From Pseudomonadota bacterium (GTDB taxonomy: Bacteria > Desulfobacterota > Anaeroferrophillalia > Anaeroferrophillales > Tharpellaceae): 57,051 nt of DNA. Numbering within the stretch: position 1 is the first letter of the stretch; each line of letters begins with the position of its first letter. The DNA is taken from the NCBI GenBank assembly GCA_011049115.1, contig DSCM01000006.1, positions 1 through 57,051 of the forward strand, read 5' to 3'. A program made the position numbers and the translations under genes. This document shows, one piece after another, positions 26,700 through 28,752 of the stretch. Under the pieces are notes generated by a model. That model ran no database searches, was not told the origin of the DNA, and saw only the letters and a program-made list of their open reading frames with translations.

Positions 26700-26775
26700 T
26701 GGAGCGGGATACGAGATTCGAACTCGCGACTTTCAGCTTGGGAAGCTGACACTCTACCAGCTGAGTTAATCCCGC
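26700..26775 (-). tRNA. tRNA-Gly (anticodon CCC)
   Basis: On the minus strand the acceptor arms GCGGGAT and ATCCCGC pair fully. D arm ACTC/GAGT, anticodon stem TCAGC/GCTGA with loop TTCCCAA (anticodon CCC), and T arm GCGAG-TTCGAAT-CTCGT (one G-T) are all in place. The discriminator base is T, usual for bacterial glycine tRNA, and CCA is encoded at 26702-26700. It reads GGG codons. Confidence 0.96.
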
Positions 26776-26922: not shown

Positions 26923-28752
26923 TTGAAAAAAGAAGGAGGAATAAGCGCAGGTTTTTCAAAGTTGCTCCTGCGTGAGGTTGTCCCGGAGCTCTTCGCTCTG
27001 GGACATGAGGCTTGTGGCCGCCTGGAACCCTGGCGCCGAAAGTTGCTTGTCTGGCTGGATGAAATTGAAGGTGAGGCCTTGACCCGGTTGGCCCGAGCCG
27101 GTTCCGGGCGGCTGCGTCGGGTAACTTTGTGCGGCACGATTCTGCGTTCGGTGTTTTCCGTGCAGTCGGAAGAGCGCACCGGATTCAGTGTCGCGCAGGC
27201 GCTGTTTGATGTGGTTCGCGGATTGGTCCGGGAAGATCTCAGCCCGGCCTTTTATGCGGAGTTGATTTCCCTTTTTAAGGGGGTAGGCGGGATTGACGTG
27301 GAAAGCCATGCCGTGATCAATGATGACCATGGCGGCAATCAGCTGATCAGTGGTCGTGAAGCGGCGGTTCTGCGTTCGCGCCAACTTGATGCCATAGAGC
27401 GCAGGGTTGGGCGATTTATGGCGCAGTACGATGATGGCCTGAACCAGGAAGCGATAGCTCGGCGGCGCTTGCGTCGCGAGCGCCTGAAAAAATATTTCGG
27501 GGCGGATGAATCTCACTGGCAGGACTGGCGCTGGCAGCTGGCAAACATTGTGCAGGACGCGGAGACCTTGACCCGGTTGGTTACCCTTCGCCCGGAAGAG
27601 GCGGCGGCGGTGCGCCGCGCCCGGCGACATCGGCTGCCCTTTGGCGTGACTCCTTATTACCTTTCCCTGATGGATGATGAGGTGGAAGGCTCCCGAAGGG
27701 ACGCCGCGATTAGGGCTCAGGTACTGCCGCCGCCGGAGTATGTGGAAGGGGTGGTCGATTCCAGATTGGAACAAGGGGATTTGTCAGGACTGGATTTCAT
27801 GCGCGAGGAAGACACCTCGCCGATCGACCTGATTACCCGGCGCTATCCTTCAATCTGTATTTTTAAGCCTTTCAATACCTGCCCGCAAATCTGTGTTTAC
27901 TGTCAGCGAAACTGGGAAATTGAAGATGCCATGGCTCCCGATGCCCTGGCTGCACCCGAAAAAATCGAAGCCGCGCTCAACTGGATTACGGAACATCCGG
28001 CGATTCGCGAGGTTCTGATTACCGGGGGGGATCCGCTGGCGATGAATGATGAGCAGTTTGAGAGCATCGTGACTCGGGTGGCCGCCGTTCCCACGGTCGA
28101 GCGCATTCGTATCGGCACCCGGACTCCAATAACCATGCCGATGCGCATCAGTAACAGACTGGCCGACTTTCTGGGCTCCGTGCGCCGGCCCGGAAAACTG
28201 GAAGTGGCGGTGGTCACGCATGCCGAGCATGCCTATGAGTTGACTCCGGAAGTGGTCGCGGCGGTGGACCGACTTAAACGTCGTGGTATCGGTGTCTATA
28301 ACCAGTTGGTCTACACCTTCTTTGTTTCGCGTCGTTTTGAAGCGGTGTTTTTGCGTCGGCGTTTGCGTCAGGTTGGCATTGATCCGTATTACACCTTCAA
28401 TACCAAAGGCAAGGAGGAAACTTCCGGTTACCGGGTGCCGATTGCCCGGCTGCTGCAGGAACAATCGGAGGAAGCCCGACTGGCTCCCGGCATCGAGCGT
28501 ACCGATGAAGCCGTGTATAACGTTCCCGGTCAGGGTAAAAGTTATATTCGCTCGCTGCGTCATCGTTATATGATCGGTTTGGACGCTAATGGCTCTCGCA
28601 TTTATGAATTCTTTCCCTGGGAGGAAGGTATCGTCAGAGTCGCTCCCGAACCCTATGTCGCCCGGGATGTGCCGCTGCTGGAGTATCTGGAAAGGTTGGC
28701 CGCCATTGGCGAGACGGTGGCGGATTATCAATCAATCTGGTATTATTTTTAG
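26923..28752 (+). CDS. KamA-family radical SAM/PLP aminomutase, glutamate 2,3-aminomutase-like, with N-terminal extension
   Basis: 609 residues. The C-terminal 420 form a lysine-2,3-aminomutase-type enzyme: KKYFGADESHWQDWRWQL opening, radical SAM cluster C320-x3-C324-xx-C327 (CPQICVYC), LITGGDPL for SAM binding, and PLP-Lys539 in NVPGQGK. By eye, the two Asp residues that hold the lysine side chain in KamA/AblA are replaced by Lys495 (FNTKGK) and Asn533 (VYNVPG), the same pair reported for glutamate 2,3-aminomutase, so lysine is an unlikely substrate. Residues 1-185 are an extra domain I do not recognise. The frame opens with TTG at 26923, but a strong AGGAGG lies inside it at 26934-26939 with no ordinary start well placed after it, so the start is uncertain. 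It stands alone. Confidence 0.82.
   Translation: MKKEGGISAGFSKLLLREVVPELFALGHEACGRLEPWRRKLLVWLDEIEGEALTRLARAGSGRLRRVTLCGTILRSVFSVQSEERTGFSVAQALFDVVRGLVREDLSPAFYAELISLFKGVGGIDVESHAVINDDHGGNQLISGREAAVLRSRQLDAIERRVGRFMAQYDDGLNQEAIARRRLRRERLKKYFGADESHWQDWRWQLANIVQDAETLTRLVTLRPEEAAAVRRARRHRLPFGVTPYYLSLMDDEVEGSRRDAAIRAQVLPPPEYVEGVVDSRLEQGDLSGLDFMREEDTSPIDLITRRYPSICIFKPFNTCPQICVYCQRNWEIEDAMAPDALAAPEKIEAALNWITEHPAIREVLITGGDPLAMNDEQFESIVTRVAAVPTVERIRIGTRTPITMPMRISNRLADFLGSVRRPGKLEVAVVTHAEHAYELTPEVVAAVDRLKRRGIGVYNQLVYTFFVSRRFEAVFLRRRLRQVGIDPYYTFNTKGKEETSGYRVPIARLLQEQSEEARLAPGIERTDEAVYNVPGQGKSYIRSLRHRYMIGLDANGSRIYEFFPWEEGIVRVAPEPYVARDVPLLEYLERLAAIGETVADYQSIWYYF

Follow-up and report, generated by a model that had tools for sequence, protein, structure and literature searches.

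The locus and its family

The window analyzed here, a stretch of 57,051 nucleotides (contig DSCM01000006.1, assembly GCA_011049115.1, from a Pseudomonadota bacterium), carries a gene of the KamA family of radical SAM aminomutases (Table 1). The question it raises is which amino acid the encoded enzyme rearranges. The original prediction, drawn from an alignment by eye, was a glutamate-type enzyme whose product, beta-glutamate, could serve osmoadaptation.

Table 1. Positions of the aminomutase gene and its features in the window
Feature	Position	Strand	Basis or remark
KamA-family radical SAM aminomutase gene	26923..28752	+	609 aa counted from TTG 26923
Extra N-terminal all-helical domain, about residues 1-140	26923..27342	+	predicted model, no fold match
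EAM N-terminal-extension match, about residues 141-199, ending at DW motif	27343..27519	+	hhalign
KamA catalytic fold, residues 182-570	27466..28632	+	superposition on 2a5h
Radical SAM CxxxCxxC, C320/C324/C327, then Gln328 (EAM-like) and Arg329	27880..27909	+	triad in 82/82 long rows
Lys495 (LAM Asp293, EAM Lys)	28405..28407	+	phmmer, MAFFT, profile-profile
Asn533 (LAM Asp330, EAM Asn)	28519..28521	+	MAFFT, profile-profile
Lys539, presumed PLP lysine	28537..28539	+	80/82 long rows, two gaps; 30/30 EAM

The gene stands alone, with a minus-strand tRNA-Gly gene upstream (26700-26775) and a convergent ORF of 1395 aa downstream, helicase-like by inspection. In the near relatives L003-L013 (11 of 11, by eye), a TTG start lies a few bases downstream of a GGAGG-like ribosome site. 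The window has the ribosome site, at 26933-26939, but the TTG after it is missing. Translation may start at TTG 26923, which lies upstream of the site, or at TTG 26962; residues are numbered from TTG 26923 by convention, the start codon being unsure.

Only one NCBIfam model was passed, the generic KamA model TIGR00238 (311.6 bits, cut-off 199.2). The protein missed the equivalog cut-offs for glutamate 2,3-aminomutase (EAM; TIGR04368, 219.4 versus 650 bits), lysine 2,3-aminomutase (LAM, AblA; TIGR03820, 175 versus 525), arginine 2,3-aminomutase (TIGR04468, 158.1 versus 600) and EpmB (TIGR03821, 129.6 versus 369.3), as well as the AblA-like-2 cut-off (133 versus 396). The top-scoring named family was EAM, at 219 bits against 175 for AblA. 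Because no NCBIfam model names the subfamily and only the generic one is passed, its members are likely to carry a generic or lysine-enzyme label.

Pairwise, the window protein is 34% identical to the EAM homologue L134 over 314 alignment columns and 26% identical to E. coli EpmB, also of the KamA family, over 305. EAM has reportedly been characterized from Clostridioides difficile. Arginine 2,3-aminomutase belongs to the KamA family too and shares the chemistry of its other members. No EpmB was found at an E-value of 1e-90 or better in 148 genomes of the phylum.

Substrate and cofactor residues

To place the active-site residues, we aligned 82 sequences of the subfamily (hereafter the long forms) with 30 EAM homologues and 25 other KamA proteins using MAFFT. 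The long-form rows comprised the window protein, 80 loci from a scan of genome contigs and one protein of genome G018, the truncated L106 being excluded; the EAM rows were the best-scoring loci from the 104 genomes with an above-cut-off match among 299 searched.

Against 2a5h, the solved structure of lysine 2,3-aminomutase, phmmer pairs D293 with K495, R134 with R329 and R112 with R307. This alignment ends at residue 509, and the pairing of N533 with D330 rests on the MAFFT and profile-profile alignments. The latter give the same placement of K495 and N533 whether EAM or LAM is the partner. With the EAM profile, K539 also falls on the EAM PLP lysine; the LAM profile gave no clean pairing for the PLP lysine, since the stretch from N533 to K539 has one residue fewer in the window protein. 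We take Lys539 to be the equivalent of LAM K337, the PLP lysine, and Arg329 that of the carboxylate-binding LAM R134.

Among the long forms, Lys and Asn occupy the two positions in 81 of 82 rows each, with one gap in each column. All 30 clostridial EAM homologues have the same Lys, Asn, PLP lysine and Cys triad, and the 25 other KamA proteins have Asp in 17 and 18 cases at the K495 and N533 columns, respectively. According to passages of the SFLD paper (PMC3965090), EAM enzymes throughout have Lys and Asn where LAM has its aspartates, a pair linked to glutamate binding, and this signature was used to correct a misannotated LAM. The alignments thus bear out the original prediction that the EAM pair stands at the LAM aspartate positions, and the Cys triad and PLP lysine are intact, as it also proposed (Table 1).

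The likeness to EAM extends beyond the pair. At core columns fixed at 95% within both EAM and LAM yet differing between them, the long family is EAM-like in eight (R306, I313, Q328, I333, T367, F492, K495 and N533), LAM-like in none and neither in one. Lowering the threshold to 90% gives 8, 2 and 3, and lowering it to 80% gives 8, 6 and 6 (binomial p 0.40). P371, I395, H433, R504 and V531 follow LAM rather than EAM.

A second shared element is the N-terminal extension of EAM. By hhalign it matches the window protein with a probability of 97.1% (E 5.5e-11), whereas the LAM profile gives only a 6-column match there (1.0%), LAM being without such an extension; the TIGR04368 match itself begins at residue 147. 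The window protein thus has in common with EAM the Lys/Asn pair, CQR after the Cys triad, a TGGD motif, F492 and the extension. It differs in its extra domain of about 140 residues, in a loop before the PLP lysine that is one residue shorter, and in the loss of Arg116, which EAM keeps.

With LAM (KamA/AblA, 2a5h), the protein shares the fold, the Cys triad, R134 and the PLP lysine. It differs by K/N for D293/D330, Q for T133, F for Y290 and R for H111, and it lacks the C-terminal Cys cluster seen in the sequence of its own genome's AblA. EpmB, by eye, keeps Asp at the K495 column.

Three arginines of LAM and EAM are replaced in the window protein (Arg116 by Ile, Arg130 by Val and Arg136 by Trp), and therefore its site is unlike both. 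On the pocket side, K315, N330, W331, K497, R509, R519 and R526 are invariant and specific to the family. An inactive or re-purposed KamA-fold protein would account for the lost Arg116, the shortened loop before the PLP lysine and the seemingly missing start codon of the window copy. We consider this highly improbable, since the Cys triad, R329, K495, N533 and K539 are invariant over the 57 rows of an alignment (A1) that reaches down to 45% identity to the window protein.

A KamA fold preceded by a helical domain

An AlphaFold2 model built from the 57-row alignment has a mean pLDDT of 90.8 and a pTM of 0.91. Its catalytic part superposes on 2a5h with a Z-score of 42.3 and an rmsd of 1.9 Å over 338 residues, the next entry reaching a Z-score of 14.4; the VIA-align rows for the full model barely extend into the N-terminal domain. 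Modeled alone, the first 192 residues are all-helical (pLDDT 82.9, pTM 0.65). A Foldseek search of these residues against PDB chains returned no match with an E-value below 1.4, which is not in itself proof of a new fold.

Phylogenetic placement

A quick tree of 113 rows sets the long forms apart as one side of a branch (support 99) with a stem of 2.39 changes per site. Four rows with very long branches (L128, L114, L126 and L099) were then dropped for the careful trees, which were also thinned from 67 to 23 long rows and from 21 to 11 EAM rows; L106 was excluded from all trees. The careful tree, with 55 rows, recovers the long clade at 100/100 on a stem of 2.82 changes per site, and the EAM homologues form a separate clade (99/85) that does not include the window protein.

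The long forms, EAM and L048 together form one side of a branch with support of 92/63, a grouping that is neither shown nor rejected; a long-plus-EAM group without L048 is not rejected either (p-AU 0.13). When E. coli EpmB and a 2a5h fragment were added, 2a5h fell nearest the LAM rows and EpmB joined the LAM-like rows, as a single EpmB sequence on a long branch. Rooted at EpmB, the long forms, EAM and L048 stay together (87/65). The placement next to EAM, at 87-92% bootstrap, is not decisive, and the long family is best called EAM-side rather than EAM.

The trees also bear on whether the protein could be a lysine 2,3-aminomutase or an EpmB-type enzyme. Its fold and cofactor residues are like theirs, and the five residues named above (P371 to V531) are LAM-like, but both substrate aspartates are replaced family-wide, the AblA and EpmB cut-offs are missed (175 of 525 and 130 of 369 bits), and the genome has a true AblA elsewhere. 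A tree constrained to hold the long forms and LAM together was rejected (p-AU 0.0002), and the single EpmB sequence included lies among LAM-like rows. We therefore rejected both assignments as extremely improbable. In the trees the protein does not group with the lysine aminomutases nor, as far as one EpmB on a long branch can indicate, with EpmB; it lies in a clade of its own outside EAM. Its glutamate-type identity is likewise qualified: the Lys/Asn pair is the published EAM signature, but by score and by tree the protein is not a member of the EAM family.

Gene neighborhood

Clustering of neighboring genes revealed no conserved operon, the largest clusters covering 8 of 82 loci. This lack of a fixed operon would suit a 2,3-aminomutase for another substrate, in which the Lys/Asn pair would hold some other polar or acidic side chain. 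Possible substrates include 2-aminoadipate, glutamine and an amino acid attached to a protein or a small carrier that the N-terminal helical domain would bind. The long separate stem, the invariant pocket-side residues (K315 to R526 above), the lost Arg116 and an added domain without a recognized fold all agree with this reading. The eight EAM-type columns, which include both side-chain residues, and the EAM-type extension speak against it, and we regard a different substrate as unlikely.

The window's own genome encodes one other KamA protein, on another contig. This protein is a true AblA (758 bits), and the gene after it encodes AblB (312 bits, cut-off 205). These two enzymes constitute the N-epsilon-acetyl-beta-lysine route. 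The pair lies at L002:848-3262, on a 3.5 kb contig, downstream of an ORF that is MarR-like by inspection. In L022 (Candidatus Anaeroferrophillacea), ablA, ablB and the long gene lie in this order on a single strand, nearly or directly adjoining, ablA being cut by the contig end.

Overall, another KamA-family gene flanks the long gene at 3 of 80 loci (L022, L048 and L076), and the density in seven genomes would predict about 0.15 (Poisson p 0.0005, a rough estimate); most long-form loci have no such neighbor. The L048 gene (Latescibacterota; L048:4032-5336, minus strand) is divergent from the long gene and encodes an EAM-like paralogue (595 bits versus the 650 cut-off) with a Lys/Thr pair, possibly representing a third specificity. 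In L076 the neighbor is a fragment of 132 aa at a distance of 5.6 kb. Genome G018 has, 55 bp after the long gene, a KamA gene that scores best as arginine 2,3-aminomutase, below the cut-off.

AblB genomes carry a long gene in 3 of 8 cases, compared with 25 of 247 genomes overall (Fisher p 0.037); this co-occurrence is weak, as two of the three genomes belong to one genus.

Other neighbors vary by lineage. A class I aminotransferase gene lies upstream of the long gene in L015, L016 and L019. In two Eisenbacteria loci (L041:4741-5943 and L045:4570-5967), a gene with a deoxyhypusine-synthase domain ends directly before it, and in the Omnitrophota loci L040, L044 and L063 two shared genes, encoding up to 1390 and 472 aa, lie upstream. 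The 472-aa product had no match among Pfam or NCBIfam families.

Riboswitches and the proposed osmolyte role

In the literature, beta-glutamate is described as a solute (PMC1224877), and eam, for beta-glutamate, is placed among osmoprotectant genes under Na+ riboswitches (PMC9337991). Upstream of the clostridial EAM (TIGR04368) loci L129-L148, we found a c-di-AMP riboswitch (RF00379) in 15 of 20, which fits an osmotic role for the EAM family. No riboswitch adjoins the long gene in 36 sequences (the window and 35 others, a few of them maybe from one genome); one c-di-GMP-I match, in L034, is 3.7 kb from it.

At the window locus, then, neither a riboswitch nor an operon supports osmoadaptation. 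Circumstantial support comes from the ablA-ablB genes adjoining the gene in L022 and from the weak AblB co-occurrence. The osmolyte role put forward in the original prediction is plausible as a reasonable inference, and we put the chance that cells retain the product as a compatible solute, alongside N-epsilon-acetyl-beta-lysine, at a little short of even.

A glutamate aminomutase could instead supply beta-glutamate for the biosynthesis of cofactors, natural products or components of the cell envelope. The lineage-dependent neighbors (the aminotransferase, the deoxyhypusine-synthase-like protein and the large genes in Omnitrophota) and the missing osmotic riboswitch are in line with such a pathway. 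The abl neighbors in L022, the excess of KamA genes in the flanks and the published solute and Na+-riboswitch links of beta-glutamate point the other way, and we judge a biosynthetic use somewhat unlikely.

A probable glutamate-type aminomutase

Taken together, the window protein is best read as a deep branch beside EAM, in an unnamed subfamily with an extra N-terminal helical domain, and it is probably a radical SAM, PLP-dependent 2,3-aminomutase with glutamate-type chemistry. This rests on the conserved K495/N533 pair and its published meaning, the 8-to-0 column count at 95%, the EAM-type extension, EAM as top named family, the branch uniting the long forms with EAM and L048, the LAM fold and the ablA-ablB-long arrangement in L022. 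Against it stand the TIGR04368 score far below cut-off, the very long stem (2.4-2.8), the three replaced arginines, the 80% column count, the branch joining the long forms to EAM, which is not starred, and the contrast in riboswitches between the long genes and the clostridial EAM loci.

By analogy with the known families, the cluster on Cys320, Cys324 and Cys327 would be an iron-sulfur cluster that cleaves SAM to give a 5'-deoxyadenosyl radical. Glutamate would be held as an aldimine on PLP, which is otherwise bound to Lys539, with its alpha-carboxylate on Arg329 and its gamma-carboxylate on Lys495 and Asn533. Hydrogen abstraction at C3 would then lead, through an azacyclopropylcarbinyl radical, to transfer of the amino group from C2 to C3 and thus to beta-glutamate.

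Distribution of the long forms

Of 247 genomes sampled from the phylum, 25 encode full-length long forms (above 560 bits), with 27 copies in all. The scan of genome contigs yielded 212 relatives, of which the best 80 were kept. Record titles among these 80 name Deltaproteobacteria, Thermodesulfobacteriota, Zixiibacteriota, KSB1, Omnitrophota, Eisenbacteria, Latescibacterota, Spirochaetota, Acidobacteriota, Sumerlaeota and others; lineage names of relatives are taken from these titles, which can be wrong for binned genomes. In the literature outside subscription journals, we found no title or abstract on the subfamily.

Tentatively, the long forms may constitute an undescribed, deep-branching clade, spread by title over many uncultured phyla, whose product in anaerobes is beta-glutamate or some new beta-amino acid, with the helical domain serving as a regulatory, oligomerization or partner-binding module absent from LAM and EAM. 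If they are glutamate aminomutases, a beta-glutamate route open to metabolomics can be predicted for many uncultured anaerobes, and the family offers a second sequence set for studying substrate choice in radical aminomutases.

In one Zixiibacteriota record (L050:5749-7623), the long gene is split over two frames, by a frameshift or an assembly error. The best 80 relatives also include an isolate, Desulfonema magnum 4be13 (L058).
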